The notes beneath the pieces were generated by a model that was not told the DNA's origin, searched no databases, and saw only the letters and a list, made by a program, of their open reading frames with translations. A program made the translations under genes and the position numbers. A stretch of DNA of 34,445 nt from a virus: positions 1 to 34,445 of IMG/VR virus record IMGVR_UViG_3300032284_001264; one strand, 5' to 3'. Of this stretch, positions 124-34,445 are shown in pieces (position 1 is the stretch's first letter; each line of letters starts with the position of its first letter).

Positions 124-856
124 AAATGCGTTAGGTAAAAATCTCAATAGTGAAAAGATAAGGGCTACTGAACAGGCTATTGATAAATTAATGAAAGCGG
201 GTGCAAATCCTGCGGCAGACCATAATTTAAAATCATTGATTTTAGATTTAAAGAATTACGAAGCACAAGCGGACTTATCAGCAAGAAAAGCCCCTGCGAT
301 GCAGAGGGATATGGCTACACAATCACAGAAATTTGCAGAAGCTAACCAAGAAATACAAGAAAAATTACAAAAAGAAGCTGATTTTATAGACAATACACTT
401 GCTCCGGCATTTACTAATTTTTTTAGCGGTTTAGCCGATGGTGCGGATGTAAGTCTTAATAGTGTTATTAAAGATATTGCAAAAATGATAGAAAAACTTG
501 CAGCAGCAGCAGCCGCAGCCGAAGTATTAAATCTATTATTAGCAGCATCAGGATTAGGAGCAGGGAGTTCTTTATTAGGAAGTGCAAAGGCAGGAACAAG
601 CGAAGGTTTTATGTCTATTTTTAAAAAAATTACAGGGTTTGCTTCGGGTGGTGTTGTACCTCCGGGTTATAGCAACGATACATACTTAGCACGATTGAGT
701 AGTGGTGAAAGTGTTTTAACTCCTGCACAATTAAAAGCGGTTGCGTCAAGTGGCGCAGGAAGCCAAAGCGGATTTGTAGCAAGAACAGAAATAAGCGGAA
801 ACGCTTTAGGTATAGTAATAGAAAGAGCGAACAGGTCAAGAGGTCGCACCTACTAA
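2..856 (+). CDS. tape measure protein, C-terminal part (N-terminal part at 33124-34445)
   Basis: This is the C-terminal part of the tail tape measure protein, which sets siphovirus tail length and helps DNA entry. The gene starts at 33124, runs off the window end and re-enters here in the same frame; joined it encodes about 684 residues. The fragment has a charged helical stretch, then an Ala-rich and Leu-rich hydrophobic segment (bases about 500-580). It ends with a G-F-A-S-G-G-V-V-P-P-G motif followed by a GES-V-L-T segment, a C-terminal signature common in phage tape measures. A TTG at 41 could look like a start but is an internal Leu codon. The stop at 854-856 is embedded in the promoter-like element at 852-906. 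Confidence 0.93.
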   Translation, partial: PKTPKPKKDKEEHLRKVDGITLEQKAMQEYGIALKDIAVKENALGKNLNSEKIRATEQAIDKLMKAGANPAADHNLKSLILDLKNYEAQADLSARKAPAMQRDMATQSQKFAEANQEIQEKLQKEADFIDNTLAPAFTNFFSGLADGADVSLNSVIKDIAKMIEKLAAAAAAAEVLNLLLAASGLGAGSSLLGSAKAGTSEGFMSIFKKITGFASGGVVPPGYSNDTYLARLSSGESVLTPAQLKAVASSGAGSQSGFVARTEISGNALGIVIERANRSRGRTY

Positions 857-906
857 CAATTGTGTAAAAAATTACACATCAATTATTCTTAAAATAATTA
901 TATTGC
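852..906 (+). promoter_or_regulatory. late promoter-like element, copy A (tail tip operon)
   Basis: The block ACTAACAATTGTGTAAAA overlaps the tape-measure stop codon. Its palindromic core ACAATTGT (856-863) starts exactly 43 bp before a -7-like box, TATATTGC (899-906). The same arrangement occurs at 21783-21837 and 28031-28085. Only this copy also has a TGTGTAA/TTACACA inverted repeat (861-878), which could form a small hairpin. I infer an activator-dependent promoter for the tail tip and fibre genes downstream. Confidence 0.65.
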
Positions 907-941: not shown

Positions 942-3296
942 TTGTCTTACGGCATAGTATATCAAATTAGTTTTAAAACACTTTCCGATAATGCCGGACT
1001 GATTAATCTTTTACAAAAAGGTTATAGTGGTTCTATCACTCAATTAAAAGGAACTGCGCAACCCATTGTAATCTCTTACAAATCGGGTGATTATTACGCT
1101 ACTGATTCCATTCGTGGCAGCGAAGCGGATATTTCATTTTACAATCAAGGTGCTACTCCTCTATCAACTTTTGAAGCCAATAGCGATAATGTTTGGCGAG
1201 TAGATTATTATTTAAACTCTAATTTAGAGTGGAGTGGATTTTTAGTGATGGATGATTGCAGAGAGGCTTTGCTTGGCACTCCTACCGTTATTAACTTAAA
1301 AGCCAATGATGGTTTGGGGTTATTAAAGGATGTAGCTTTTACAGATTTAACAGGAAGCATTATTTATTACGGAGGAGGAAGTAATGGAACGATAAAACTT
1401 TTAGATGTTTTAAATTATTGCTTATACAGAACAGGATTATTGTTACCTACGAACAATTACTTAAATATGTTCGAGGTAGGTATGAACGACAGGACTTCAA
1501 CGAATACCAATGATCCTTTTGCACAGGCTTACGTTGATCCAAGAATGTATCTGCTGACTGAAACAGATGCAGGGCTTGTAAAGAATAGTGCTAATCCGGT
1601 ATTACTATCGGATATAGTGAAAGACTGTTATACGGTTTTACAAAGTCTTTTAGCCGATTGGAATTGTACCATATTTCAGAATAACGGTCAATGGAACATA
1701 GTTAGATGGGTTGAATTAAAAGACTTTTCAAACAATCCTCCCGGCACACAATATCAGATGGATGCGAGTACAGGTGCTTTTAATTCGCCAAGTGTAGCAC
1801 CTTCTTTAAGTTTGATAAATATCGGTTCTTCTGAGTCGGTTAAGTTTATCAATGCTTCACAAACGAGGTATTTTATACGACCTAACAGCTATGTAAACAA
1901 TCAGTTTAATTATCAGCAACCACAAAAGCTGATTTTAAACATGGATTTGATGACATTAGGCTCGTTGGTAGCAACTTCTTACGCTACTATTAACGGTGTT
2001 AAATACAAATATGAAGATTATCTTTTACCCGATTGGACTTTTAATGGCCCTTCTTATATCTCTTACATCAGAAAAGTAAGCGATACAAGAACAAATTTAG
2101 AGGTAGATAGATTTATTTATATGCCTTTAGATCAGGCTTATTTTACAAATAGTCATGGCGATACTGATTATAAAAATATTCAGTTTAATGATATTTTAGT
2201 AAGCCAAAATTCAAGGATGGATTTTAGTGCTGACTGTTGTATGCAGGGCAATATAGATGCAAGTTTTTGTGTATCATTTAATCTACAATCAGCAGCAGAT
2301 CCGACAAAGTTCTATGAACTCGCATTGGTAGGTGGTTCTTATAATTATTTCAGATGGAATGGCCCTTACACTTCACATGAAGATGGGAAGATACCTGAGT
2401 TTTTTAGTGCTTCTGTGTGGTCGCCTACCAATAACAATTACAATACTTTTTCTTTAAGCGGATTGATTACGGCTCCATCGAATAGTGTAAACAAGATTTT
2501 TCCTGCTTTCCCGGTAGATGGCATTTTAAAGATAAGATTGTACGGTTTTAATTTTAACGGTGCAACTGCGACAACGTGCTATGTAAAAAACCTAAGTATT
2601 ACGATGGATTATTACATTAACCAAAGCACCAAAATAACAGGGCATTATAATAAATCATCTATACAGAACGCATCCATCAGAAAAAACATAAGCAATCAAT
2701 TAACTTATTCAGATTCGCCTGTATTTTCTATCAATGGTGCTTTACTCGTGGGAGGCACAACTAAAACAGCAGCTTGGAAGAATTATTGGAATATGCCTCC
2801 TGAAAATTTAAGTTTGGTAACTACCGGCATTACTTCAACAAATCCTACTATCAGAAAATGTAATGTTACGATAAAATACGCAGGAACTCCTGTAAGTGGT
2901 TACACCTTTGATGTACCCGCAGGAACGACTGTTATCACATTTGCCTCTTTGGGATTGGCTGATTTATCGGGTATTATCGGGCCAAGTGGCTACCAACTAA
3001 TCATTAATTATTACTACGCTTTTACTCCTTCTTTCGGATTTGTACAAACAGTAGAAAAAATGTTTTTAACGGATGCACTCAGGACAAAAGTGGATTGCGA
3101 TTTAAAGGGTGTAGGCTTTGGTGTAGGAAATGTGTTTGAAGTAGATGAATTAAGCGGCCTGAATTTCATTTTAGGTCAATGTGAGTTTGATATAGCTAAT
3201 GAAACAATGAATGGAACATTAGAGGAATTGTGGAATAGTGGTGAAACATTCGATCCAACAAGTTTTGATAACGAATTTAATTATTTATACTCGTGA
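942..3296 (+). CDS. predicted tail tip / distal tail protein (784 aa)
   Basis: This large protein directly follows the tape measure, the usual position of distal-tail and tail-associated baseplate proteins. It is rich in Tyr, Asn, Ser and Thr with alternating beta-like segments, and has no signal peptide or membrane segment. The N-terminus (SYGIVYQISFKTLSDN) and the early WSGFLV motif fit the tail-tip proteins I know from Bacteroidota phages, but no catalytic motif is visible, so the role is mainly positional. The start is uncertain: TTG at 942 is the only start in this frame after an in-frame TGA at 936. A nearby ATG at 935 is in another frame and hits a stop after 11 codons; a one-base error here would restore an ATG start. 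Its stop overlaps the GTG of the next gene. Confidence 0.6.
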   Translation: MSYGIVYQISFKTLSDNAGLINLLQKGYSGSITQLKGTAQPIVISYKSGDYYATDSIRGSEADISFYNQGATPLSTFEANSDNVWRVDYYLNSNLEWSGFLVMDDCREALLGTPTVINLKANDGLGLLKDVAFTDLTGSIIYYGGGSNGTIKLLDVLNYCLYRTGLLLPTNNYLNMFEVGMNDRTSTNTNDPFAQAYVDPRMYLLTETDAGLVKNSANPVLLSDIVKDCYTVLQSLLADWNCTIFQNNGQWNIVRWVELKDFSNNPPGTQYQMDASTGAFNSPSVAPSLSLINIGSSESVKFINASQTRYFIRPNSYVNNQFNYQQPQKLILNMDLMTLGSLVATSYATINGVKYKYEDYLLPDWTFNGPSYISYIRKVSDTRTNLEVDRFIYMPLDQAYFTNSHGDTDYKNIQFNDILVSQNSRMDFSADCCMQGNIDASFCVSFNLQSAADPTKFYELALVGGSYNYFRWNGPYTSHEDGKIPEFFSASVWSPTNNNYNTFSLSGLITAPSNSVNKIFPAFPVDGILKIRLYGFNFNGATATTCYVKNLSITMDYYINQSTKITGHYNKSSIQNASIRKNISNQLTYSDSPVFSINGALLVGGTTKTAAWKNYWNMPPENLSLVTTGITSTNPTIRKCNVTIKYAGTPVSGYTFDVPAGTTVITFASLGLADLSGIIGPSGYQLIINYYYAFTPSFGFVQTVEKMFLTDALRTKVDCDLKGVGFGVGNVFEVDELSGLNFILGQCEFDIANETMNGTLEELWNSGETFDPTSFDNEFNYLYS

Positions 3297-4234
3297 GTGT
3301 AGTAAAGGGAAAAAGTTTTTTGTTGATGGTGCAAAAGTCAGGTGTCTATGTTCCAATAGCCACAGGGAGAGATATTTCTTTAGATCAACAAAGAGAAGTA
3401 TTAGAAGCCTCATCATCATCAAGCGGTAAATGGAGGGAATTTATAAAAGGAAAGATAACGGCTAATATTTCTGTTAGTGGGTTACAGTCTTATAATTATT
3501 CATCATTTTTTACGGCTGATAACATTTTTGATGAGTTTAGCGGTAATGATAGTGGTTCTTTGCCGTTTCAATTTGTGGCAAATGTTGATGGTGGTTCGGT
3601 ATTATATTCAGGTAATATTTTACTAACTTCTTTAAGTTTAAAAAGAAGTTACAACGATGCTTCTGTTTTTGATTTATCAGCACAAGTAACAGGCCCGGTA
3701 ACAAGAACAACAAGCGGTACTCCGATAACTCCTCCAACAACAGGAGTATTGATTGTGAATCCTACATCAGTAAGAGCGATTGAATACACTGCTACCGGTG
3801 GCGAAAGCGTTATTAATCCTTTGTTAGTAGGAATTATCCCTTTAATTGTAACACGAGGAGGTATTGAAACAGGAACAATCATAACAAGCGGTACTCCAAG
3901 CGGAGCGCAAGTTTTATACAATTCAAGCACCGGCACATTTGTTTTTTCTTCTGATAGTCCCTTAGTAGCGGGTGAATTTGTACGTTTTATTTATTCTAAA
4001 ACAATCAATGTTTATCAATTCATTTCTTCTACAAGCGGATCAACGTATATCAATACTTCATTAGAAGATAAAACAATGATTTCATTTAGCAGAAACGGTA
4101 TTGCACAATCTATTATTACAAGCGGTACTCCAAGCGGAGCGCAAATCAAATTTGATAATACAACAGGAACAATCACTTTCCCAAGCGGCAATTTATTAAC
4201 CGTTGGGGAATCAATAAGGATAGTATATGAATAG
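3293..4234 (+). CDS. second tail-tube-like protein with C-terminal repeat domains
   Basis: The first ~135 residues resemble the phage tail tube fold: K-G-K near the N-terminus, a hydrophobic strand with ATGRDISLDQQ, then a Ser-rich loop before GKWREF and a strand ending ISVSGL. This pattern parallels the major tail protein at 32004 (KGKGIYLQV..., SLDFEGF). After a Thr/Pro linker come two similar ~45-residue units, each containing ITSGTPSGAQ. They are encoded by an exact 27-bp direct repeat (3884-3910 and 4118-4144), with a 14-bp partial copy at 3710. It probably caps or decorates the tail tip. The GTG start overlaps the previous stop, and the end overlaps the next ATG by 8 bp. Family assignment is by eye. 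Confidence 0.55.
   Translation: MSVVKGKSFLLMVQKSGVYVPIATGRDISLDQQREVLEASSSSSGKWREFIKGKITANISVSGLQSYNYSSFFTADNIFDEFSGNDSGSLPFQFVANVDGGSVLYSGNILLTSLSLKRSYNDASVFDLSAQVTGPVTRTTSGTPITPPTTGVLIVNPTSVRAIEYTATGGESVINPLLVGIIPLIVTRGGIETGTIITSGTPSGAQVLYNSSTGTFVFSSDSPLVAGEFVRFIYSKTINVYQFISSTSGSTYINTSLEDKTMISFSRNGIAQSIITSGTPSGAQIKFDNTTGTITFPSGNLLTVGESIRIVYE
3884..4144 (+). repeat. 27-bp exact direct repeat within the tail-tube-like gene
   Basis: The two 27-bp copies are at 3884-3910 and 4118-4144; both start ACAAGCGGTACTCC. A 14-bp partial copy lies at 3710-3723. Both full copies are in the same reading frame and encode TSGTPSGAQ, so they mark a duplicated protein domain rather than a regulatory site. Confidence 0.85.
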
Positions 4235-5126
4235 AATAAAAATACTACTAATCATCGCTTTGTTTATCTCATTGGGAGGTAAAGCGCAATCATGGTTAAT
4301 CACCGGGCAAAAACAACGATTTGCTGCGGGATTAGGAATACCTGTACGAGATACGATAACGAGTTCTTCTGCTGATTCAGCGCAATTAGTATTAAGGCCA
4401 CAGGACAGCACTTTTTACGGAAAATATAAAGGCTATTGGAAAAAAATAGGTGGTGCTGATACTTCTGTTTTAAATCAGTATTACGTTCAAATCCAAACCC
4501 AAAATCCGACAGCATCTTTAAGCGGTGGATATTCGTATGAAAGACACGCATCGGGAACATTTACGGTTTCATTAAGTTGGTCAGCAGGGCGACAAGCTGC
4601 GGGAACAGGTGTGAATGCTACCAATCCTTTAAGTTCTATTGTCGTTGCGGGAACAAGCGAAAGTTTTTCTCAGCCAAGTGCGGGAAGTAGTGTAAGCGGA
4701 ACACAGAGCGTTACAGTTACTTATAATAGCAATACAACGTATAACAATGTTGTAACAACAACGGATAGTAAAACGGCAACAGCTTCTACTTCATTTACTG
4801 TTTATGATAAGCGTTATTTAGGATGGGCAGCGACTTCCACTCCTTCCAATGCAGAAATATTAGCGGCAGTTTACCAAGATAATTCAGGTAACAGTTCATC
4901 GCTTACGAATACACTGTCTCAATTAGGCAGTGATAAATATTTATTTTTTGTAACGACATCAACGGTAACAAGTGTAAGTGTAAACGGTTTTCCAAGTACA
5001 TCGGCATTTACTTTAAATACATCGAAAAGTTTTACGAATGCGAGTGGTGGTGCTTTTAGCGGTTACATCACCGTAAGTAATAATGCTTTTGGATCAACAT
5101 CAACAAACACAGTAAGTTTTAACTAA
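4227..5126 (+). CDS. exported fibre-like protein 1 (Sec signal peptide)
   Basis: The N-terminus MNRIKILLIIALFISLGGKA followed by QS is a clear Sec signal peptide with a basic n-region, a hydrophobic core and A-Q cleavage typical of Bacteroidota. The mature ~280 residues are rich in Ser, Thr, Asn and Gly, with repeating beta-strand periodicity (SGTFTVSLSW, SVSGTQSVTVTYNS, TASTSFTVYD), as in phage fibres or adhesin stalks. No enzymatic motif is seen. It overlaps the preceding gene by 8 bp and ends one base before the next ATG, so it is in the tail operon. An export signal on a presumed virion fibre is odd, because virions assemble in the cytoplasm. It could instead be displayed on the cell surface. 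Confidence 0.7.
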   Translation: MNRIKILLIIALFISLGGKAQSWLITGQKQRFAAGLGIPVRDTITSSSADSAQLVLRPQDSTFYGKYKGYWKKIGGADTSVLNQYYVQIQTQNPTASLSGGYSYERHASGTFTVSLSWSAGRQAAGTGVNATNPLSSIVVAGTSESFSQPSAGSSVSGTQSVTVTYNSNTTYNNVVTTTDSKTATASTSFTVYDKRYLGWAATSTPSNAEILAAVYQDNSGNSSSLTNTLSQLGSDKYLFFVTTSTVTSVSVNGFPSTSAFTLNTSKSFTNASGGAFSGYITVSNNAFGSTSTNTVSFN

Positions 5127-5127
5127 T

Positions 5128-6885
5128 ATGAAAAAAATCTTTTTAATATTTTTCTTTCTGTTTTCAACTTGTGAATTATTTGCACAAGTGAATATCGGTG
5201 CAGATGGAAGGGTACATAGTTCTTCCACAGGTGGAACGGTAACGCTCAGTAATGAATTAACTATCGCTACTGATACGACTTCCCGAAAGACAGGATTTGC
5301 TTTTGTAGGTGGGCAGTTGTATTCAGGTAATGGTACTTATTACACTATTACAAGCGGATTGCAATTAGACAGCACCCGATTAGCGTTCTTAGCGAAAAAT
5401 CAAACATTTACCGGACAAAATAAGTTCGGTTCTCCGGTGGCGGGAAGTAGTGGCACATGGAGTACACAGGCTTTGATTGCTGATAATATTGTGGCTAATA
5501 ATCTAACAGGATTAGGAACGGCAAATAATAGTGTAGGAAGCGGTGTGAACTTTGCTTTAACAACAGGTGGCGGATCTCCTACTTATGCGCATTTGTTACA
5601 GTTAGGCGCAAGTGGGCAGTTAAGTTTATGGAATTTCAATGCGAGTAGAAACACATGGGTAAATGGTAATCAGTTTTTAATTGATGGCAATATTTTAATG
5701 GGTTCGGATAGTGCTGCTGCACGTTCTTATGTGCGTTCTTATGCACAGCCGACAGGATCTTATTTAGTAGCGGGTAACAACTTAGCCGATGTAACGAATG
5801 TAAGCACAGCCTTATCAAACTTAAACGGTGTTGCATTAAGTGGTAATCAAACAATCAACGGAGTAAAAACATTTGTTCAGCCAATTTCGGCAAGTGGAAT
5901 TAATAATTTATACGGCAGTTCAATAGCAATGTTGAATGGTTCAAATTCGGCTACTTATTTAGTTGGTGTGCCAACTTTTACAACTTCTCATAATTTTTAC
6001 TTTCCTTATAAAAACGCAACAGGTGCAGATACATTCGCTTTGCAATCTGATTTATCATCATATCAAAAATCACTTACCCTTACCACAACAGGAACAAGTG
6101 GCGCAGCTACTTTAACGGGAAGTACATTAAACATTCCGCAATATAGTGGTGCAACAAATATCGGTTCTTCATTTAGTGGATTGGGCAGAACAGTTAATTT
6201 AACATCATCCACAGGAACAGGAACATCATTTACATTGCCGCATGATAGTTTAAGTTATACAAGTGGTGCAAGTATTGGCATATTAAATAGTAATTCAATC
6301 ACCCTTTCATCTTTACCCAATTCATCTTTAGTAAACAGTTCCGTAAGTATTGCGGGTAATTCTACATCTCTCGGCGGAAGCGTTGGATTAGATGCAATTA
6401 CAGGGGTTAGTTCTAACGGATATTTAAAGAGAACAGGAACAAACACTTTAACCAATATTTCTTCTATCGGTAATGCTGATTTAACTAATTCATCGGTAAC
6501 AGTAAACGGTAATTCGGTTTCATTAGGCGGTTCAACAACGATTAATAATTACGCAATTACAGGAAGCGATACAACCATTACATATAAGGCAGATAGTTCA
6601 ACAATGACATTAAACTGCAATGGTCAATTATATAAATCTTTCTACATCATTTTAACAGGAACAGGCAGAACATTATCATTTGTAAATGCAGTTCAGAACG
6701 GTGTTTACACGGTAAAAGTTTATCAAGATGCAACAGGTGGCAGAACAATTACAACTTATACTAACGGATATTTTGCAGGAGGTACAGTTCCAACGCTTAC
6801 TTCAACTGCAAGTGCTTTAGATATTTTGTGCGGATGGTATGACGGCAATAAAATGATGTGGAACGCAAATCTAAATTATAAGTGA
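5128..6885 (+). CDS. exported fibre-like protein 2 / receptor-binding candidate (Sec signal peptide)
   Basis: The 585-residue product starts with a signal peptide (MKKIFLIFFFLFSTCELFA, then Q-V-N). The body has low-complexity fibre-type segments: QTFTGQNKFGS, LNGVALSGNQTINGVKTF, LTTTGTSGAATLTGSTLNIP and SVTVNGNSVSLGGST. Such repeats are typical of tail fibres and head spikes in phages of Bacteroidota. The C-terminal ~90 residues form a beta-rich end (GRTLSFVNAVQNGVYTVKVYQD...GWYDGNKMMWNANLNYK) that may be the trimer tip. It overlaps the next gene by 4 bp. The fibre call rests on composition and position; the signal peptide is seen directly. Confidence 0.72.
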   Translation: MKKIFLIFFFLFSTCELFAQVNIGADGRVHSSSTGGTVTLSNELTIATDTTSRKTGFAFVGGQLYSGNGTYYTITSGLQLDSTRLAFLAKNQTFTGQNKFGSPVAGSSGTWSTQALIADNIVANNLTGLGTANNSVGSGVNFALTTGGGSPTYAHLLQLGASGQLSLWNFNASRNTWVNGNQFLIDGNILMGSDSAAARSYVRSYAQPTGSYLVAGNNLADVTNVSTALSNLNGVALSGNQTINGVKTFVQPISASGINNLYGSSIAMLNGSNSATYLVGVPTFTTSHNFYFPYKNATGADTFALQSDLSSYQKSLTLTTTGTSGAATLTGSTLNIPQYSGATNIGSSFSGLGRTVNLTSSTGTGTSFTLPHDSLSYTSGASIGILNSNSITLSSLPNSSLVNSSVSIAGNSTSLGGSVGLDAITGVSSNGYLKRTGTNTLTNISSIGNADLTNSSVTVNGNSVSLGGSTTINNYAITGSDTTITYKADSSTMTLNCNGQLYKSFYIILTGTGRTLSFVNAVQNGVYTVKVYQDATGGRTITTYTNGYFAGGTVPTLTSTASALDILCGWYDGNKMMWNANLNYK

Positions 6886-7856
6886 TGAAGAAAATATTTA
6901 TCATATTATTTCTTTTCAATTCGGCTATTGCACAACAAGGTGCAAGGATGCAGTATTGGTCAATGAATATAAGCGGATGCCCTGCGGGTAAATCCACTTA
7001 TTCTGGCATTTGTTTAGATACTTCAACAATCAAGTTTGTTCAAGCTATTGTCAATAGTGGAACAACGCCGAGTAATAGTAATATGCTTTTGTTAGATACA
7101 TTGGTTTGCGATTTGAAAGGTTTGCTATCAGATAGCAATGCAATTCATCCTTATCCCGGATCAACAAATTTTTGGAGCAATATAATTTTTGCACATCCGA
7201 TTTATGGCAGCACAGATGTAAGTCATGCCTTTAATTTAAAAGATACCTCTAAGCATAAAATTACTTATGCGGGTTCTACTAAACCGTATCATTCATCACT
7301 TGGTATTTTTTATAATGGCACAAGTGCAGAATCTGATATTGCCTATCCTACATCATCTGAATTGAGTTCAATTCAATCAGCAACACTTGGTTATTATACG
7401 AGAACAGACACATTAGAAAGTAATGTGGCAGGTAGAGCAATGATTATGAGTTATAGCGGCTCTGCAACTAATATTGTTTATATGGTTGGTAATAGAAGCA
7501 CATTACTTGGAGGGGGCATTGGTTCTGATAATACCAATTTGTATAATCAATCATCTGCGCTTGCAGGTTTTTATTTAACATCAAGAACAACATCTACTTT
7601 ATCTAAAACATGGGTTAGTAATACACTTTATTCAACCGACACCCATAACAACGGTTCTTCAACAGTTCCAACAAGCACATTTAATATGGGAAGAACTGCG
7701 GCAGGGGCTTATGATATTCAAAGCACACAATTTGTAATATTCTTAAATACAGGTATAAGTGATAGTGATGAACGGTTGTTATATAAAATTATTCAGTCTT
7801 ATCAAGAGCGATTAGGAAGAAGTAAGGGAACTAAAATTTTACCATTTGGAAATTAA
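6882..7856 (+). CDS. exported protein 3, fibre tip or lectin-like (Sec signal peptide)
   Basis: The 324-residue product begins MMKKIFIILFLFNSAIAQQG, a third consecutive signal peptide with A-Q cleavage. The mature part contains two Cys (GCPAGK, GICLD) and a beta-rich body, including a G-Y-Y-T-R-T-D-T-L segment and an aromatic HPIYGSTDVSHAF region. Near the end is a D-S-D-E-R-L-L-Y-K-I-I-Q-S-Y-Q-E-R-L-G segment, which in LamG/concanavalin-like phage and Bacteroidota proteins closes the sandwich domain. A carbohydrate-binding role is therefore plausible but unproven. The start overlaps the previous stop (ATGA), and ATG at 6882 or 6885 could be used. Confidence 0.65.
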   Translation: MMKKIFIILFLFNSAIAQQGARMQYWSMNISGCPAGKSTYSGICLDTSTIKFVQAIVNSGTTPSNSNMLLLDTLVCDLKGLLSDSNAIHPYPGSTNFWSNIIFAHPIYGSTDVSHAFNLKDTSKHKITYAGSTKPYHSSLGIFYNGTSAESDIAYPTSSELSSIQSATLGYYTRTDTLESNVAGRAMIMSYSGSATNIVYMVGNRSTLLGGGIGSDNTNLYNQSSALAGFYLTSRTTSTLSKTWVSNTLYSTDTHNNGSSTVPTSTFNMGRTAAGAYDIQSTQFVIFLNTGISDSDERLLYKIIQSYQERLGRSKGTKILPFGN

Positions 7857-7861
7857 ATTAT

Positions 7862-7996
7862 ATGAAAACAATCATCACAATAATTCTCATCTGCTTACTT
7901 GCTTCATGTACGATTAGAGTATATGACAACAGAAGCGGAATGACAAGAAAAGAAAGTAAGCGAATTATTGATAGTGTAATGAAAATAAAACCATAA
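7862..7996 (+). CDS. small lipoprotein (44 aa)
   Basis: The sequence MKTIITIILICLLASC is a signal peptide with a lipobox (L-A-S-C), followed by a short basic mature part of about 29 residues. It follows the three exported proteins with a 5-bp gap and precedes the lysis genes. Two readings fit: an outer-membrane lipoprotein of the surface cassette, or a small o-spanin partner for the spanin-like protein at 8785. The lipobox is visible; the function is not. Confidence 0.65.
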   Translation: MKTIITIILICLLASCTIRVYDNRSGMTRKESKRIIDSVMKIKP

Positions 7997-8015: not shown

Positions 8016-8261
8016 ATGAGAGATTTTTTTAACCAAGTTTTTAGTGGTGGAATAAAACCCGACAGCGCATTGATTGGTGGTGGAAGTGGATTATTAACGC
8101 TGAATTTTTTGGATGGATTTGGTGAAATAAATCCTGAAATAACTATTATCCGATTTGCTTTTGCTTGTATGAGTGCAATGGTTTTCGCTTTGTTAGCGGA
8201 GTTTATGAAGTATTGGTTTCACCATTATATCAAACCAAAACTTAGAAAAAAAGAACATTAA
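8016..8261 (+). CDS. small membrane protein, holin candidate
   Basis: The 81-residue protein has a Gly-rich weakly hydrophobic segment (ALIGGGSGLLTLNFL) and a strong membrane helix (about residues 44-68, with FACMSAMVFALLAEF). It ends in a highly basic tail (KPKLRKKEH). Size, basic C-terminus and a position a few genes upstream of the endolysin fit a holin. Holins have no universal motif, so this is inference from context. Confidence 0.5.
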   Translation: MRDFFNQVFSGGIKPDSALIGGGSGLLTLNFLDGFGEINPEITIIRFAFACMSAMVFALLAEFMKYWFHHYIKPKLRKKEH

Positions 8262-8470: not shown

Positions 8471-8788
8471 ATGTGGGTATTATTCTTAGCCTTAGCAGCT
8501 ATCTGCGATGCGATAATGGATACTTTAAAAGACCATTATGAAATTTCAGTTTTCCATAATTGGAATAAATACTTTTGGAATCCTGCTTATTCATGGAATT
8601 ATCATAAGAAGTTTTTTGGTATTGTGGAGTTAGATGCTTGGCACATCGTTAAATATGCTTACTTGTTTTTTCTTTTCTCATCCATGTATTACTATAAGAC
8701 AATTACAGGTTGGATTGATATTCCTTTAATGTTCATTTGGTGGTCTGTTTGGTTTGAATTGTTTTATTCAAAACTACTTAGATTATGA
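8471..8788 (+). CDS. multi-pass membrane protein of unknown function
   Basis: This 105-residue protein has about three membrane segments: residues 1-16 (WVLFLALAAICDAIM), one near 64-76 (AYLFFLFSSMYYY) and one near 83-101 (IPLMFIWWSVWFELFY). In between is an aromatic, His-rich stretch (HNWNKYFWNPAYSWNYHKKFFG). I do not recognise a family. It overlaps the spanin-like gene by 4 bp, so a role in lysis or the envelope is possible. Confidence 0.7.
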   Translation: MWVLFLALAAICDAIMDTLKDHYEISVFHNWNKYFWNPAYSWNYHKKFFGIVELDAWHIVKYAYLFFLFSSMYYYKTITGWIDIPLMFIWWSVWFELFYSKLLRL

Positions 8789-9435
8789 AGCAAGAAACAC
8801 AGGACACCATCATTCAAATATTTTTAAAGATTGTAGTGATATTTATCGTTGCTGTTTTCTTGTTAGGATTATTTTTCTCGATTACCGGATGCAGAACGGT
8901 ACAAAAATCATTACAGGTAGAAAAGAAAAGCATTGACAGTACAACGGTTATTAAAAAAGAAGAATCGCAGAAAGTGATTGATTGGGGCGAAGTATTAAAA
9001 GCGGGTGATGTGGATGTTAAGATAACTTTTGATACCAACAGTACGGTAATCCCGACAAGTTCCCAAAATGGGAATGATACCGCACAACACTACTCTATTG
9101 CAACGGACTTTATCTCTCACTTAGTTGATTTGGCACATAAGCCAATATCCTCAATAGAAATAAGCGCAAAAAATGTAAGTGATAGCGTACACAATAACGT
9201 ACAAACCAATGTACTTAAAAGCACAGATAGCACCCATGTAAAAGAAACGGTAAAGAATAAGGATGAGAAAAAAGAAACAAAGAGTAATACTGTTTTATTA
9301 ATCATTGCGGGGATAAGTTTGATTGCCATTGTTTACGGTGCGTATGTAAAAAGTACAGCCGATAAGGCAGCAAAAACACCCGAAGAAATTTACAATGCAA
9401 TAAAAGCTAATGAACTAAAAAAGTTGATTAAATAA
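8785..9435 (+). CDS. spanin-like protein (unimolecular spanin candidate)
   Basis: The 216-residue protein starts with a hydrophobic segment ending in a lipobox (SITGC, Cys about residue 36). A long polar region of about 135 residues follows, then a second hydrophobic helix (TVLLIIAGISLIAIVYGAY, about 173-191) and a short charged tail. An N-terminal lipoprotein signal plus a C-terminal membrane helix is the topology of u-spanins such as T1 gp11, which bridge inner and outer membranes and fuse them at lysis. It sits directly before the endolysin, as expected. Alternatively the first helix is uncleaved and the 44-aa lipoprotein at 7862 is its partner. Phage T1 gp11 is smaller, so this is an inference from topology. 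Confidence 0.6.
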   Translation: MKQETQDTIIQIFLKIVVIFIVAVFLLGLFFSITGCRTVQKSLQVEKKSIDSTTVIKKEESQKVIDWGEVLKAGDVDVKITFDTNSTVIPTSSQNGNDTAQHYSIATDFISHLVDLAHKPISSIEISAKNVSDSVHNNVQTNVLKSTDSTHVKETVKNKDEKKETKSNTVLLIIAGISLIAIVYGAYVKSTADKAAKTPEEIYNAIKANELKKLIK

Positions 9436-9436
9436 T

Positions 9437-9949
9437 ATGGCTGACTTTAATTTATACTTTCCGATAGAGCAAAAACTCGAGGGTGTTGTTTATGAAAATG
9501 ATGCAGTAGATGTAGGTGGATGCACCAAAGTAGGTTTAACGCTTGATGATTTAAAAAAGTATTACAACAATCCTAATCTTACTTGTGATGCAGTTAAAAA
9601 CATGACAATAGATGAAGCAGGTATTATTCTTAAAAAATTGTATTGGGATTATTACAGAGCCGATGAAATACCTAATCAATCTCTTGCTATGTTTTTGGTA
9701 GATAGTAGATTAAATCAAGGCAATGTAATTACAAAGTACATACAACAGATTGTAAGTGTTACTGATGATGGTTTGTTTGGTAATAATACATTCAATGCAA
9801 TGATGGCTTTCGATGGCAAAGAATTATACAAACAGCTTTATAATAAAAGATTGGTGCGCTATAATAATATAGTGGCATCTAATCCGGTACAAAATAAATT
9901 TTATAAGGGTTGGATTAACAGACTTGATGCTATTAAGTTTCAAGCATAA
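9437..9949 (+). CDS. endolysin, GH108-family muramidase
   Basis: The 170-residue protein fits the GH108 N-acetylmuramidase family, which cleaves the peptidoglycan glycan backbone at lysis. The expected N-terminal motif E-G-G-Y-x-N-D-x-x-D-x-G-G appears as LEGVVYENDAVDVGGCTKVG, with E15 as the likely catalytic Glu. The middle LYWDYYRADEIPNQSLA matches the conserved family core. The C-terminal QNKFYKGWINRLDAI matches the PG_binding_3 region usually fused to it. The second Gly of EGGY is Val here. It has no signal peptide, so it depends on a holin. It follows the spanin-like gene by one base. Confidence 0.85.
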   Translation: MADFNLYFPIEQKLEGVVYENDAVDVGGCTKVGLTLDDLKKYYNNPNLTCDAVKNMTIDEAGIILKKLYWDYYRADEIPNQSLAMFLVDSRLNQGNVITKYIQQIVSVTDDGLFGNNTFNAMMAFDGKELYKQLYNKRLVRYNNIVASNPVQNKFYKGWINRLDAIKFQA

Positions 9950-14846: not shown

Positions 14847-15587
14847 TTATTTTTCAATTAATTCAAACCATTTTTTTGCTGTTTCAAATGCCATCAATCG
14901 AAGATTAGATTTAAGGCTTCCATTGTTAGGAAACTCATTATCGTTATTCCAAAAATTTTCATTCCATTCATCTAATGTTCTATTAAAACATCCCATTTTA
15001 ATTCGCTTAATTCCTGTTTCTGTTATATAAGGAATGACGATGTATTCATAAAGACCTGTGAATACTACTGCTGTTTTTATTTTTTCACCCTCCAAATAAG
15101 CACCCTCCAAATCAGCATCCCGCAAATAAGCACCCTGCAAACAAGCACCCCGCAAATAAGCACCCCGCAAATCAGCACACTGCAAATCAGCACCCTCCAA
15201 ATCAGCACACTGCAAATAAGCACCCCGCAAATCAGCATCCCGCAAATCAGCACCCTCCAAATAAGCACCCCGCAAATCAGCAACCCGCAAATCAGCATCC
15301 CGCAAATAAGCACCCTGCAAACAAGCACCCTGCAAATCAGCACCCCGCAAATCAGCACACTGCAAATCAGCACCCTCCAAATAAGCACCCTCCAAATAAG
15401 CACCCCGCAAATCAACACCCTCCAAATAAACACCCCGCAAATCAACACCCTCCAAATCAGCATCCCGCAAAATTTTCTTATTACTTACCGCTTCTATTAA
15501 AGTGTCTTTAATAGTATTATTTTCTTTCTCGTATTCAAAAAGAATAGAGCCGTTAATCAAACTTTTGATTTCAATTTTGAGTTTCAT
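14847..15587 (-). CDS. pentapeptide-repeat protein
   Basis: The 246-residue protein has a short N-terminal domain (MKLKIEIKSLINGSILFEYE). A long run of A-D/Y/C-L-x-G/C pentapeptides follows (about residues 38-165), such as ADLRGADLQGACLQGAYL, forming a right-handed quadrilateral beta helix. The C-terminal ~80-residue alpha/beta domain includes GCFNRTLDEWNENFW. Pentapeptide helices can mimic B-DNA (MfpA, Qnr), so a DNA-mimic or anti-defence role is possible, but the partner is unknown. The gene is flanked by NinG and the DnaA-like gene and overlaps NinG by 4 bp. Confidence 0.9.
   Translation of the reverse strand: MKLKIEIKSLINGSILFEYEKENNTIKDTLIEAVSNKKILRDADLEGVDLRGVYLEGVDLRGAYLEGAYLEGADLQCADLRGADLQGACLQGAYLRDADLRVADLRGAYLEGADLRDADLRGAYLQCADLEGADLQCADLRGAYLRGACLQGAYLRDADLEGAYLEGEKIKTAVVFTGLYEYIVIPYITETGIKRIKMGCFNRTLDEWNENFWNNDNEFPNNGSLKSNLRLMAFETAKKWFELIEK
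15093..15470 (-). repeat. 15-bp tandem repeat array encoding pentapeptides
   Basis: About 25 degenerate 15-bp units (plus-strand form like GCACCCTCCAAATAA or GCACCCCGCAAATCA) lie head to tail. Variation is limited to a few alternating positions, so units are almost identical at the DNA level. This suggests recent expansion, contraction or gene conversion. It is a coding repeat, not a CRISPR array. Confidence 0.9.
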
Positions 15588-19840: not shown

Positions 19841-20964
19841 TGGCATTTACAGTAAAAGCGATATTATTCAAATCAAAACAGAAAGATGGCAAATATCCTA
19901 TTGCCATAAGGACAACTATAAGTAGAAAGATAAGTTACAAGTTTACCGGGTATTGGTGCAAAGAGAATCAGTTTGAAAAAGGACAAATTTTATCCAATTA
20001 TCCTGACTATAAAATAGTAAACAGGGCAATACTTCAAGAGATTGCATCTACCGAAAGAAAGATTAGCACCGAATTATCATTGGGTAACGAAATCACCATT
20101 GAAACAATAAAACCTAAAATAGAGAAAAGCATATCAATCAGTGAATTTGTAGAAAAAATAAAGCATGATTACAAAGGCAAGTTCTCTGATGGAATACTCC
20201 GACATTATCAAGTTGTTTTAAATAAAGTGATGGAATTTGATGACAAAATTAGATTTTCTCAAATAGATGTTGCATGGATGGAAAGTTTTGAAAGATACTT
20301 AAGAACTAAAAAGGATATTAACGCACACACCATAAGCAATAACACGCTTCAAAATAACATGAAGATATTGAAGTCATTACTTTATAAGGCTTCCGAGTTG
20401 TCATTAATTGACAAGTCAAAGTTTGACAAATACAAACTACCAAAATACATTCAACCTATTCCTGAATATCTTACTGAAAATGAAATAAATGCTTTTGAAA
20501 AAATTGTTTTTGCTTTGGGTGAATCTTCCCTTAAAACATCGGGTTATTATTTTTTATTATCCTGTTACACAGGTTATAGAATAAGTGATGCTAAAAAATT
20601 CGATTATGATAAGTTTGTAAAAGATGGGCAAATCATTTTAAGGGCAAAGAAAAATAAAAGCATTGTTTCTATTCCCGTACATTCAAAACTTAAACCTGTT
20701 CTCAAATACATTCAAACACATCCTTTAAATATACCTGAGCAAAACGTGAGAGATTATGTGAAAGATATTTGCAAGTTAGCCGGGATAAAGAAGCACGTTA
20801 AATACCACACTTCCCGACATTCATGGGCAATGTTATTGATGAGTAAAGGCTTCACAACAGAAGAAGTCAGCGAAACATTAGGCGATTCCGTTAATGTTGG
20901 CAGGATTTATGCGAGGATTTCCAACGAACAATTATCTAATAAAATCAAAAATAAACTAAAATGA
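19840..20964 (+). CDS. tyrosine recombinase / phage integrase
   Basis: This 374-residue enzyme catalyses site-specific integration and excision. The N-terminal arm-binding region (VKAILFKSKQKDGKYPIAIR) is Bacteroidota-type, followed by a SAM-like core-binding domain (about residues 105-200) and the catalytic domain. Box I is CYTGYRISDAKKF with the catalytic Arg; box II contains HTSRHSWA, the H-x-x-R pair; and the nucleophile is Tyr in GRIYARI. The usual His/Trp of the LGH motif is Asp here (TLGDSVNVGRIYARI). Its stop overlaps the next ATG by 4 bp. Confidence 0.9.
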   Translation: MAFTVKAILFKSKQKDGKYPIAIRTTISRKISYKFTGYWCKENQFEKGQILSNYPDYKIVNRAILQEIASTERKISTELSLGNEITIETIKPKIEKSISISEFVEKIKHDYKGKFSDGILRHYQVVLNKVMEFDDKIRFSQIDVAWMESFERYLRTKKDINAHTISNNTLQNNMKILKSLLYKASELSLIDKSKFDKYKLPKYIQPIPEYLTENEINAFEKIVFALGESSLKTSGYYFLLSCYTGYRISDAKKFDYDKFVKDGQIILRAKKNKSIVSIPVHSKLKPVLKYIQTHPLNIPEQNVRDYVKDICKLAGIKKHVKYHTSRHSWAMLLMSKGFTTEEVSETLGDSVNVGRIYARISNEQLSNKIKNKLK

Positions 20965-21380
20965 AATACTTATTATTTTTAGCGATTGTATTCGCAGCTT
21001 GTAATAAAACCATTGGCCCTGCGCCATTACCTTCTAAAACTTATCTCTACAAATCAGATAGTATTCGTATCAGCCAAGCTGATTTTCACGATACGGCTAT
21101 TTTTAATAACTTATGGAATCAATTACAAAAATACAGGACTGTTGATGTAACAATAGATACATTATTCCAATCACCTATTACCGGTATGCAAATTAAAGTT
21201 GTTGATCCATTAGGAAGTAGTCAAATTTTTAACTCTAAAATTGTAAGCCCTTTTATTGCTCGGTTTAGAAGTTCTTTACCTCAAGCAATGAATGGTTATA
21301 CAGGTTCCAACTCTTACGATTATCATTTATTCGTGATTGAGAATACAAAAATTACAGAAATACCTCTTACTTTTAGATAA
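20961..21380 (+). CDS. lipoprotein in the lysogeny operon, lysogenic-conversion candidate
   Basis: MKYLLFLAIVFAAC is a lipoprotein signal with lipobox F-A-A-C, so the 139-residue product should be lipidated at Cys14. The mature part is a beta-rich globular region (TYLYKSDSIRISQADF, GMQIKVVDPLG, YDYHLFVIENTKITEIP) with no known motif. It is translationally coupled to the integrase upstream (4-bp overlap) and the XRE regulator downstream (1-bp overlap), so it is likely expressed in lysogens. An envelope lipoprotein made by a prophage is a plausible superinfection-exclusion factor (compare phage T5 Llp), but this is inference. Confidence 0.75.
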   Translation: MKYLLFLAIVFAACNKTIGPAPLPSKTYLYKSDSIRISQADFHDTAIFNNLWNQLQKYRTVDVTIDTLFQSPITGMQIKVVDPLGSSQIFNSKIVSPFIARFRSSLPQAMNGYTGSNSYDYHLFVIENTKITEIPLTFR

Positions 21381-21748: not shown

Positions 21749-21782
21749 TATTGTTCGTGAAACATTAAAAATTATCTAACAA

Positions 21783-21837
21783 ACTAACAATTGTGTAAAA
21801 AATAATTTAATTATCTTACTAATAATTTGTAAATTCG
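21783..21837 (+). promoter_or_regulatory. late promoter-like element, copy B (terminase operon)
   Basis: ACTAACAATTGTGTAAAA begins at 21783, with ACAATTGT at 21787-21794 and a -7-like box TAAATTCG at 21830-21837, again 43 bp apart. A shared AATTATCTT lies between (21809-21817). The start site would fall about 10 bases before the ATG at 21853, giving a near-leaderless transcript. Confidence 0.65.
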
Positions 21838-25948: not shown

Positions 25949-26665
25949 ATGAACATTCTAATTAAGAATTGCCCATCTCTCATTGGTGATTTTTTAGGCA
26001 TTGCACCCGCATTGCAGAAGTTAGCAAAGAATAATAATGTTTACGTTGATACATCTTACGAGATAGATAGTTTGCTTGAATTAGTATCGAGCCGACATAA
26101 TATTTTTAAGCAGAAAAATATTGTTTACGATAAGAAAATAGACATCAATATCACAGAGCCTTTTACAATGGCGCATCATAGTAATTTATATATGACACAG
26201 GCTTTTTGTAGGTATTTGGGTGTAGAGTATTCGGGAATACCCAAAGCGGATTTAGATTACAGTAGTGGTGGATTTCAGTATGAAGATTTTTATGTGATTT
26301 CTCCTTTTGCACGTTCTCTACCACCGGATCAAAAACTTTCAATGAATGTGTGGCAGGAAGTGATTAATCATTCAGGAAAACATTTTATTGTATTGGGTAA
26401 TTCAAAGCATGATATGAATACTTTAAACAGAACGCTTACTTTATTCGATAAACCTTTCGATCATGTTTGCCAAGTTCTAAGAAACTGTAAAGGATTGATT
26501 TCACTTGTTACAGGCACAAGCCATTTAGCATTTCACTTAGGAGTGAAAAATATTTTACTCACCAATCAAGGCACAACCGGATGGGGTGTTAATCCCGATG
26601 CGGTAAAGATTACAAAGCACATACCTACTATTACAGCCGAAGATATTATTAAACACTTAAATTAG
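25949..26665 (+). CDS. glycosyltransferase family 9-like protein
   Basis: The 238-residue protein resembles GT9 (heptosyltransferase-type, GT-B fold). Evidence is the N-terminal S-L-I-G-D-F-L-G-I-A-P-A-L (compare G-D-x-x-x-x-T-P-A-L), FIVLGNSKHDMNTL and the C-terminal CKGLISLVTGTSHLAFHLGV, which in GT9 binds the nucleotide sugar. It is shorter than typical GT9 enzymes (~350 aa) and may be a reduced form. It sits inside the head gene cluster but in its own short cassette. Targets could be virion proteins or host surface glycans. Confidence 0.75.
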   Translation: MNILIKNCPSLIGDFLGIAPALQKLAKNNNVYVDTSYEIDSLLELVSSRHNIFKQKNIVYDKKIDINITEPFTMAHHSNLYMTQAFCRYLGVEYSGIPKADLDYSSGGFQYEDFYVISPFARSLPPDQKLSMNVWQEVINHSGKHFIVLGNSKHDMNTLNRTLTLFDKPFDHVCQVLRNCKGLISLVTGTSHLAFHLGVKNILLTNQGTTGWGVNPDAVKITKHIPTITAEDIIKHLN

Positions 26666-27012: not shown

Positions 27013-28035
27013 TTGAATATCATCATTCCCTTCCCTGAATTAGTTACAGGAGTACATTACCATCGTTTAAAGCTGCCTTTTAGTTTAATTAAAGGCAATA
27101 TTAAGTTTTTACAGAAAGTGGATCCCGAAGTTATGGCATGGGCTGATGTAATGATAATCTCTCGTGATATTGGTAACTCTCGAAGCGAAGTACGACAAAT
27201 TTGTGATTTCTATAAAATCAAATTGATTTATGATTTTGATGATAGCCCTTTTTTAGATCATACTCATAGAGCATTTGCAGACTATCAAAAAAACAAAGTA
27301 ACAGAAAATCAATTATACAATGTTTCTATTTCAGATTGTGTTTGGGTAACGAATGAAAGATTAAAAAAAGTATTATTACCTTTTAATACCAACATTGATA
27401 TTATTCCTAACTCTATTCCACTGGGTTACGACCAATTTAATGAAAGTAAAAACCCAAGTGAAAGAATACGGTTTATTTATGCCGGTGGCACAACGCACTA
27501 CAAAGATTTATTACTAATTGAGAATACTTGTCGGGTATTAAGAAAAAACGAAAAGTTTAAAAGTATCGGACAGATGGTAATGGCAGGATATTCAGATAAT
27601 CCAAAGTACAAAGATTATTGGGATAAGGCAGAAGCACTTTATTCAGGACAGCGGCCTAATTGGGAAACATACAAAAGGGTTTATCAGTTACTTACTTCTG
27701 AATATATGAATTTGTATAAAGATGGCGATGTTGGGTTAGTGCCTTTGGTAGATAATGAATTTAACCGGTGCAAGAGTAATTTAAAGTTACTTGAATTGGG
27801 AGCAAAGAAACTCCCTGCCATTGTTAGTTATATGCCTACCTATACGGACAACAATCCTCCTGTGAAGTGGGTGAAAAAAGAAAGCGATTGGTTAGAATAC
27901 ATCATGTTTTACATCAATCATCCTGAAAAGATAAAAGAAGATGGAGAAAAGTTGTATGAGTGGGTAAAGACTTATTACTCGATGGATGATGTTAATACTA
28001 AAAGGATTGAATCGATAAAGAGATTATTAAACTAA
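27013..28035 (+). CDS. glycosyltransferase, GT4-like
   Basis: The 340-residue protein resembles GT-B family 4. Its N-terminal domain has LIYDFDDSPFLDHTHRAFAD, then SDCVWVTNERL and IDIIPNSIPL. The C-terminal domain has IRFIYAGGTTHYKDLLLIE, GDVGLVPLVDNEFNRCKSNL and KLLELGAKKLPAIVS, the nucleotide-sugar binding E-x7-E-like region. The start is TTG at 27013, because an in-frame TAA lies two codons upstream and no ATG gives the conserved N-terminus. Its stop lies within the promoter-like element at 28031. Confidence 0.82.
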   Translation: MNIIIPFPELVTGVHYHRLKLPFSLIKGNIKFLQKVDPEVMAWADVMIISRDIGNSRSEVRQICDFYKIKLIYDFDDSPFLDHTHRAFADYQKNKVTENQLYNVSISDCVWVTNERLKKVLLPFNTNIDIIPNSIPLGYDQFNESKNPSERIRFIYAGGTTHYKDLLLIENTCRVLRKNEKFKSIGQMVMAGYSDNPKYKDYWDKAEALYSGQRPNWETYKRVYQLLTSEYMNLYKDGDVGLVPLVDNEFNRCKSNLKLLELGAKKLPAIVSYMPTYTDNNPPVKWVKKESDWLEYIMFYINHPEKIKEDGEKLYEWVKTYYSMDDVNTKRIESIKRLLN

Positions 28036-28085
28036 CAATTGTGTAAAAGTAAATTTTTTAATTATCTTGAAAATAATTAAATTCG
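28031..28085 (+). promoter_or_regulatory. late promoter-like element, copy C (protease/capsid operon)
   Basis: ACTAACAATTGTGTAAAA starts at 28031, with ACAATTGT at 28035-28042 and TAAATTCG at 28078-28085, again 43 bp apart. AATTATCTT (28060-28068) and AAAATAATT before the box are shared with copy A. It overlaps the GT4 stop codon, as copy A overlaps the tape-measure stop. Confidence 0.65.
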
Positions 28086-32837: not shown

Positions 32838-33124
32838 GTTGGGATGATGTGCATGAGTTTGCTTTTGGAATACTCGGCTTACTGCCACGAGAATATTATA
32901 TGATGACAGAGGCCGAGTATGTTTCTTGTTGCAAAGGTTATTCAAAGAGAGAAAAAGGTGAATGGCAAAGAGCGAGATTAATAGCTTACACGATACATAC
33001 TCACATGGCAAGTAATCCGGTAGATATTGAGGAGTTTTTGCCTTTGGAAGAAAAGCGATCAGAGCGAATGACAGAGGAGGAAATGGATGAAATATTTAAT
33101 CAAAATACAAACTTTTTAGGATAA
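32825..33124 (+). CDS. tail assembly chaperone, frameshift extension (gpGT-like T domain)
   Basis: The extension reads KEAISWDDVHEFAFGILGLL then PREYYMMTEAEYVSCC, the typical start of the C-terminal part of lambda-type GT chaperones. It yields a fused protein of 228 residues and ends inside the tape-measure ATG. The T part normally binds tail tube subunits and the tape measure. A minor start at GTG 32849 is possible but the fusion explains the frame better. Confidence 0.8.
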   Translation, partial: KEAISWDDVHEFAFGILGLLPREYYMMTEAEYVSCCKGYSKREKGEWQRARLIAYTIHTHMASNPVDIEEFLPLEEKRSERMTEEEMDEIFNQNTNFLG

Positions 33125-34445
33125 TGGCAGCAGAAGAAGGACTCATAATAGGGATTGGTGCTGACACATCCGATTTAGAGAGTGGAATAAATGCTGCCAA
33201 GAAATCCGTACAAGATTTTAGCGGGGCCTTACAGGGTGCGTTAAGTGAAGCTACCGGGCAATTATCTGACTTAAATTCTAAGTTAGAAAATTTACAATTT
33301 GAGAAGGCTTTTGGTGATGGTTCAACCAGTGCAAGTGCTTTAAATAAAGAGATAGCACAAACAAAACTGCAAATCAATTTAGTTACTAAGGAAATTGAGC
33401 AGTATAAGGGTGCGATGAGTGGTGCAACGAATCAGAGTGATTCAATGCGCAATGTGATGATGGCGACCAATAGAGTAATCAGGGATTCTCATTCCCTACT
33501 CTATTCAACAAACAGAGGTATTGCAGAATTAACTTACGCATTACCCAATTTAGCAGCGAAATTAGGCGAAGTAAAAGCCGAAACAGGTTCATGGAATAGT
33601 GCATTAGGCTTATTAGGTTCTACGCTATTTAGTTGGCAATCGGCTTTATTTATTGCCGGTACAGCTTTAGCGATGTTTTTAAGACATCATAAAGAAGCAA
33701 AAGAATCTGTTACAAGTTTAAACGATTCAATTAAAGACGAAGCATCAGCAATTAGTTTAGCTGAAAAAGAATATGTAAAGACATCTTCTGCTGTTGATAG
33801 TGTAAAAGAATCAATTGAACTTGCTAAGCAAGGGATTATTAGTAAAAAAGATGCTATTGCTGAATATAATAAAGAATTAGGCAACGCATTAGGCAAGGTA
33901 ACAAGTTTAGAAGCTGCCGAAAAAAGTATTACTGATAAAGGCCCTGCTTTTATACAAATGACAATGCTAAAAGCAGCAGCCAATTTAGCGTATGAAGCGG
34001 CAGCTAAAAAAGCATTTGAGGCAGCACAAGCTCACGCAAAAGCTGAGGCAGATGCGTTTAAAGAAAGTGCAAATCTTGCTCAAAAGGCAATTGCATTTGG
34101 TGCGGGTAATAATTCTGCACCGGGATTTGTTCCTAATCAAACAGGAAGTACAAAGTTAAAAACTGATTATATAAAATCAGAAGGTGAGGCAATTAAAAAA
34201 GCACAAGAAAAATCAGCTAATGATCAAAAATCTAATCTTGAAAAGATTGGTAATGATTTAATGAAACAGGCTGCTGACATAGCAAAGAAGTCAAATATTA
34301 AATTTTTAGATGAGTTAAAAGATCCAAAAACACCAAAACCTAAGAAAGACAAAGAAGAACATTTGCGCAAAGTAGATGGCATTACTTTGGAGCAAAAAGC
34401 GATGCAAGAGTATGGTATTGCTTTAAAAGATATTGCTGTTAAGGA
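33124..34445 (+). CDS. tape measure protein, N-terminal part (continues at 1-856)
   Basis: The gene begins at ATG 33124, overlapping the chaperone stop by one base, and is open to the window end. It starts AAEEGLIIGIGADTSDLESG, a typical tape-measure N-terminus, followed by heptad-like helices (LSDLNSKLENLQ). A hydrophobic segment lies around residues 155-185 (SALGLLGSTLFSWQSALFIA and TALAMFL). Long Ala/Lys/Glu-rich helices follow. Rejoined with 1-856, the protein has about 684 residues. Confidence 0.93.
   Translation, partial: MAAEEGLIIGIGADTSDLESGINAAKKSVQDFSGALQGALSEATGQLSDLNSKLENLQFEKAFGDGSTSASALNKEIAQTKLQINLVTKEIEQYKGAMSGATNQSDSMRNVMMATNRVIRDSHSLLYSTNRGIAELTYALPNLAAKLGEVKAETGSWNSALGLLGSTLFSWQSALFIAGTALAMFLRHHKEAKESVTSLNDSIKDEASAISLAEKEYVKTSSAVDSVKESIELAKQGIISKKDAIAEYNKELGNALGKVTSLEAAEKSITDKGPAFIQMTMLKAAANLAYEAAAKKAFEAAQAHAKAEADAFKESANLAQKAIAFGAGNNSAPGFVPNQTGSTKLKTDYIKSEGEAIKKAQEKSANDQKSNLEKIGNDLMKQAADIAKKSNIKFLDELKDPKTPKPKKDKEEHLRKVDGITLEQKAMQEYGIALKDIAVK
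34323..34445. repeat. terminal direct repeat, right copy
   Basis: Identical to 1-123. Removing one copy gives a 34,322-bp circle with the tape-measure gene intact. Confidence 0.95.

Follow-up and report, generated by a model that had tools for sequence, protein, structure and literature searches.

A fibre cassette with export signals

The virus record IMGVR_UViG_3300032284_001264 (34,445 bp, used at its full length and called the window here) carries, between its tail-tip and tube-like genes and its lysis genes, three consecutive genes for fibre-like proteins that begin with predicted Sec signal peptides (SPs), followed by a gene for a small lipoprotein. In what follows, SP+Q stands for an SP with Gln at position +1, a cassette is a run of SP genes at the position of the tail fibres, and labels such as L001, L103 or L143 denote the loci with which the window was compared. 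The four genes, all on the plus strand, had been picked out in a reading made from the sequence alone, which described the first three as exported through clear signals with A-Q cleavage, the fourth as a lipoprotein and the group as fibre-like proteins within the tail operon; the N-termini, Q-blind scoring and gene positions bear this description out.

The first gene (4227..5126) encodes a fibre-like protein of 299 residues, whose SP (4227..4286) has its predicted cleavage site between KA and Q, MNRIKILLIIALFISLGGKA preceding the site and QSW following it. The second (5128..6885) encodes a tail fibre of 585 residues, predicted to be exported, with a variable distal part; its SP (5128..5184) reads MKKIFLIFFFLFSTCELFA up to the predicted cleavage between FA and Q, and continues with QVN. 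The third (6885..7856), an open frame for 323 residues, has an SP (6885..6932) of the sequence MKKIFIILFLFNSAIA, also called by Q-blind scoring, with predicted cleavage between IA and Q, followed by QQG. While the starts at 4227 and 5128 stand as given in the sequence-only reading, that of the third gene had to be moved from the GTG at 6882 to the ATG at 6885, which overlaps the preceding stop as TGATG. The fourth gene (7862..7996) encodes a lipoprotein of 44 residues in which MKTIITIILICLLAS, with the lipobox LLAS, precedes C. It has no second membrane segment, and the u-spanin-like gene at 8785-9435 is separate from it.

All three SPs of the fibre-like proteins combine a positive charge, a very hydrophobic core, a small residue at -1 and Gln at +1, the sequence features of Q-rule substrates of signal peptidase I. 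SPs were called with a simple home-made scorer that ignores the Gln and that flagged only Lom, Rz and Bor in a control on phage lambda. It called an SP in 35/35 cassette genes, compared with 32/649 other phage genes and 96/12,980 shuffled N-termini. The motif [AGS]Q at residues 14-27 was found in 22 of the 25 non-redundant cassette genes and in 55/649 of the others (Fisher p 1.7e-19); the loci were sampled by homology and partly for having SPs, and these figures are descriptive and do not give a prevalence. Small single SP+Q genes also occur outside fibre clusters, in Cellulophaga phage phi10:1 (L006 27739-28029, minus strand) and in Bacteroides phage BK745P4 (L007 9625-10056).

The genes follow each other closely. 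Gene 3293 and gene 4227 overlap by 8 nucleotides, there is a gap of 1 nucleotide from 5126 to 5128, 5128 and 6885 overlap by 1 nucleotide, and 5 nucleotides precede 7862. Since the cassette genes overlap or lie within 5 nucleotides of each other, their start codons are fixed and their arrangement assigns them to the late tail operon. Later start codons are implausible because unusual gaps would open between the genes. Misread starts were thus rejected on the tight junctions and on the SPs of the homologues in L143 and L152, which have diverged and yet are conserved; the loss of the hydrophobic N-terminus in homologues, by which the export signals could have been discredited, is not what these show.

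Relatives of the tail-tip gene 942 occur in Cellulophaga and Flavobacterium phages and relatives of the terminase include Bacteroides phages, so the host of the window phage is likely to belong to the Bacteroidota. Cleavage by signal peptidase I exposes a Gln in a mean of 71% of its substrates in Bacteroidetes, and this residue is then cyclised to pyroglutamate (PMC5837995). If a phage has adapted to exporting proteins through Sec in these bacteria, SPs followed by Gln are therefore what it should carry, and the A-Q site, present as had been noticed, is a matter of the host phylum and not special to this phage.

As to the destination of the products, no match to the C-terminal sorting domain of the type IX secretion system (NCBIfam) was found in any of nine SP proteins, and export by that system was rejected; none of the three fibres has a lipobox. 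A soluble product resting in the periplasm would therefore be expected for all three. Family and domain searches found no match to enzyme families in the three proteins, and no S74 domain was detected in the window allele of 5128. No relatives of 6885 were found in family, phage-collection and PDB searches, and PDB sequence searches yielded no usable relatives. AlphaFold gave no usable fold for mature 6885 (predicted local distance difference test score, pLDDT, 32) or for the C-terminal part of 4227 (pLDDT 34).

Related cassettes and genomic surroundings

The close relative L001 is 98.5% identical to the window, and its flanks are 98-99% identical. Between them, blastn blocks and the mismatch profile show the stretch 5810..7982 to be replaced by unrelated sequence, with a breakpoint at about 5810, corresponding to residue ~228 of 5128. 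L001 keeps the SP-bearing N-terminal part of 5128 unchanged and has a different distal part, giving an allele of 990 residues that ends in an S74 chaperone domain (PF13884 E 1.2e-9). Downstream follow three unrelated replacement genes, of which two are SP+Q and one begins with what resembles a signal, its type being uncertain; the 44-residue lipoprotein is absent. A conserved N-terminal part joined to a swapped distal part, at a position between the tail-tip and lysis genes of the late operon, is the pattern of a host-range module, and by this comparison the exchange is one of host-range-module swapping in which the export signal is retained. Judged from these sequences, the identity of 5128 as a tail fibre is well supported, a known fibre chaperone being recognised through the S74 of the L001 allele only.

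Homologues of 4227 and 5128 lie together in L143, part of a phage of 61.5 kb that encodes GroEL and whose terminase (phrog_6681) is not that of the window. The C-terminal 214 residues of 4227 are 70% identical there, while the N-terminal part is different, with an SP of its own that ends in G before Q. The N-termini of the 5128 homologues read QVLIGADGKIHSGATGG... in L143 and QVNIGADGRVHSSSTGG... in the window, so that both L143 homologues have their own diverged SP with Gln at +1. The same phage (L145/L147) also encodes a protein of 1,413 residues with a match to a PHROG tail family at its end. A third homologue of 5128, in prophage L152, likewise keeps SP and Gln, contains a BNR domain and adjoins lysis genes and an integrase.

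Similar arrangements recur elsewhere. In prophage L103, the tape measure gene is followed by a homologue of 942, a tube-like gene, three SP+Q genes (GDSL-like, Fn3, and esterase-like/PKD), membrane genes and a lipoprotein. L129 has a single SP+Q fibre after its 942 homologue, and in prophage L153 signal-like N-termini are found on three genes in a row, of which the first alone shows a Q-type site. Terminase relatives L011-L089, mostly short contigs, contained no fibre cassettes.

Among Cellulophaga phages, gp091-094 of phi10:1 and gp085-087 of phi18:3 are all SP+Q, and all seven are annotated as 'structural protein ... experimental MS/MS proteomics' (MS/MS, tandem mass spectrometry); statements on virion MS/MS in this work are record annotations of Cellulophaga phages. 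Similar clusters occur in phi19:3, phi46:3, Ingeline_1 and Nekkels_1, so that the cassettes span three families, the Assiduviridae (phi10:1, Nekkels_1), the Pachyviridae (phi18:3/phi19:3/phi46:3) and the Duneviridae (Ingeline_1). These clusters resemble that of the window in having three to five near-consecutive SP+Q fibre or lyase genes before membrane and lysis genes, and in phi10:1 also in following homologues of 942 and a tail-tube-like gene. They differ from it in that their enzymes are of the pectate-lyase type and their fibres are not homologous in sequence (tblastn of the three window fibres against the phage collection gave no matches).

The signal is not a fixed part of such proteins. 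Versions of the phi10:1 gp093 lyase domain that lack an SP occur in phi14:2 gp097 (structural, MS/MS) and in phi17:2 (structural by similarity to phi4:1), and the domain itself is therefore virion material. On fibre-position genes, no SP was found in 11b, phi18:1, phi12:1, phi38:1, B124-14, P12024S and FCL-2, nor in three Bacteroidales phages and several prophages. From these comparisons, the SP appears as an optional, modular part of the fibre cassette and not as a necessity of the phylum. A profile comparison of the SP-less N-terminal domains (phi18:1) with the SP-bearing ones gave no match, and we make no claim to an attachment domain common to both.

Around the cassette, the window has a siphophage-like gene set with terminase (phrog_2), portal, Mu-F-like protein, prohead protease, tape measure, tail proteins, endolysin and integrase. 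Both of its ends consist of an identical direct repeat of 123 nucleotides (1-123 and 34323-34445), and the tape measure gene, whose first part is at 33124..34445 (plus strand), runs open off the end of the record and resumes at 41-856 across this repeat; the record is therefore probably a complete genome. The operon, all on the plus strand, includes the gene for a tail-tip or virion structural protein (942..3296; PHROG virion structural protein E 1.2e-14), homologous to the MS-detected proteins phi18:1 gp59 and phi10:1 gp088, and that for a tail-tube-like protein with a C-terminal extension (3293..4234; Phage_tail_2 E 5e-8; PHROG major tail protein E 4e-15). After 4227, 5128, 6885 and the lipoprotein gene come membrane genes, among them one for a small holin candidate (8016..8261; hydrophobic segments and position, no family match), then a probable unimolecular spanin (8785..9435; lipobox ITGC, C-terminal membrane segment, phrog_806 of unknown function at E 7e-6, similar layout in L103) and an endolysin (9437..9949; Glyco_hydro_108 and PG_binding_3). 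Upstream of the operon lies a promoter-like repeat of family D4 (850..906, plus strand), also present at 21781-21837 and 28029-28085; these three similar intergenic sequences of about 57 nucleotides (AACTAACAATTGTGTAAAA...TAAT...), 5' of genes 942, 21853 and 28151, look like shared late promoters.

Several other genes were noted in passing. Next to the integrase, gene 20961-21380 starts with a lipoprotein-like signal (MKYLLFLAIVFAAC) and may encode an envelope protein outside the late operon. Within the head module, 25949-26665 and 27013-28035 look glycosyltransferase-like by eye, and a Pfam search gave no match. A pentapeptide-repeat protein (14847-15587, minus strand; PF00805 E 5.6e-43) is made of 15-nucleotide repeats, and its start resembles that of gene L146:1733-2524 in the otherwise unrelated phage of L143. 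The 4.3-kb contig L093, filed under a gammaproteobacterial metagenome-assembled genome, has a terminase 70% identical to that of the window and is probably a mis-binned phage contig.

A proposed periplasmic route for fibres and its alternatives

Tailed-phage virions are, according to the textbook, completed in the cytoplasm. Export signals on fibre proteins that are common to unrelated phages, including marine phages with MS/MS-annotated virion fibres, do not fit this scheme. We give a probability of about 0.5 to the reading that the cassette encodes receptor-binding and/or surface-degrading tail fibres made as Sec precursors, which mature in the periplasm and join the virions at lysis. The export signals, their conservation and the operon position are well supported as far as sequence goes, and for SP-bearing structural proteins in virions support comes from the record annotations of other phages. 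Among the options that had been listed for the cassette, these annotations of phi10:1 and phi18:3 favour maturation outside the cytoplasm and late addition over pure decoys.

The fibres would be translated alongside the other late tail genes and pass through the Sec translocon, and signal peptidase I would cut them and expose the Gln, which would probably be capped as pyroglutamate by a host periplasmic glutaminyl cyclase. They would then wait in the periplasm, folded and apart from cytoplasmic substrates, until endolysin and spanin open the envelope and this periplasmic pool comes into contact with tails built in the cytoplasm; docking through the conserved N-terminal part would be the last step. 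Such a route might keep surface-glycan enzymes and binders apart from cytoplasmic precursors, allow folding that is oxidative or depends on Ca2+, provide a cap for the N-terminus and mask receptors before lysis. Whether this amounts to a recurrent alternative assembly route in several families of Bacteroidota tailed phages, with Sec export, periplasmic pyroglutamate capping, fitting at or after lysis and an SP that moves within an exchangeable host-range module, we judge tentatively, at somewhat less than even odds. Several points weigh against such a periplasmic route. The MS/MS annotations are confined to Cellulophaga phages, and co-purified envelope proteins may be among them; many Bacteroidota phages do without SPs on their fibres; the tails would have to reach the periplasmic fibres before the lysis products disperse; and 6885 is an orphan without homologues or fold, for which structure models are uninformative.

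The strongest rival is receptor masking from inside the cell. Fibres and lipoprotein, once exported, would here remain in the periplasm or in the outer membrane and bind up the receptor of the host, their presence in virions being secondary or absent. This would block superinfection and spare progeny from debris, in the manner of the T5 lipoprotein Llp, which occupies the host receptor and blocks superinfection. If the signals work, export surely puts the proteins into the right compartment, and a small lipoprotein gene adjoins the receptor-binding fibres in the window as llp adjoins the receptor-binding gene of T5. However, that lipoprotein is not retained in L001, phi10:1 and phi18:3 have seven proteins with SPs that are annotated as structural from MS/MS, and no fibre-like genes other than those of the cassette were found downstream of the window's tail-tip genes. 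We consider masking unlikely as the whole explanation; it could coexist with the assembly of exported fibres into virions. Rather improbable, too, is that the products are enzymes or binders of surface polysaccharides which are freed at lysis and clear the matrix for the progeny, only some of them residing on virions. Relatives with pectate-lyase annotations and with GDSL, PHB-esterase-like and BNR domains agree with such a role, and one sentence in Bartlau et al. (PMC8776804) remarks that the lyase proteins of Ingeline and Nekkels carry signalling peptides, such enzymes being placed on tails elsewhere in that paper. The window's three proteins show no enzyme family, however, and the S74 chaperone and the fibre-type swapping indicate assembled fibres.

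The hydrophobic N-terminus might also remain unused for export, the fibres being assembled in the cytoplasm and the segment being retained, for example for docking or membrane contact. Such an arrangement would agree with standard cytoplasmic assembly, and homologous modules do work without an SP in other phages, but the cleavable c-region and the Gln are conserved in an otherwise diverging SP, which would not be expected of an uncleaved segment; we see little chance for it. As for lysogenic-conversion genes that sit in the tail region by chance and alter the surface of the lysogen, the window has an integrase, and the exported Lom of lambda is encoded between tail-fibre genes. This idea was rejected as hardly credible because the stretch from 942 to 7996 leaves no space between its genes for promoters of their own, and the same cassettes occur in plaque isolates such as phi10:1 and phi18:3.

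If Sec export of virion fibres is real, it adds a second compartment to the assembly of tailed-phage virions and brings the host envelope into fibre folding, disulphide or Ca2+ chemistry, the containment of enzymes and the capping of N-termini. It also affects the annotation of receptor-binding proteins of Bacteroidota phages, whose genes resemble those of host secreted proteins, and for study such proteins would be expressed in the mature form and not as the precursor.

Comparison with known systems

In a literature search that covered papers outside subscription, the only mentions bearing on exported virion fibres were remarks in PMC8776804 and PMC10367356, and none joined the points made here. 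Matrishin et al. (2023, PMC10367356) describe five functionally uncharacterised Q-rule genes of Porphyromonas gingivalis phages, which may modify the outer membrane. They share with the cassette phage SPs that expose Gln; they differ in that the paper connects them with neither tail fibres nor virions.

Fibres and spikes with the S74 domain, the chaperone of endosialidase, are matched by the L001 allele of 5128, which ends in S74, whereas described ones such as phi38:1 gp085 start without an SP and the window allele has no detectable S74. The products of lambda lom and T5 llp are cell-envelope proteins, not fibres, and have no sequence relation to the cassette; what they have in common with it is that exported proteins are encoded beside tail fibre or receptor-binding genes.

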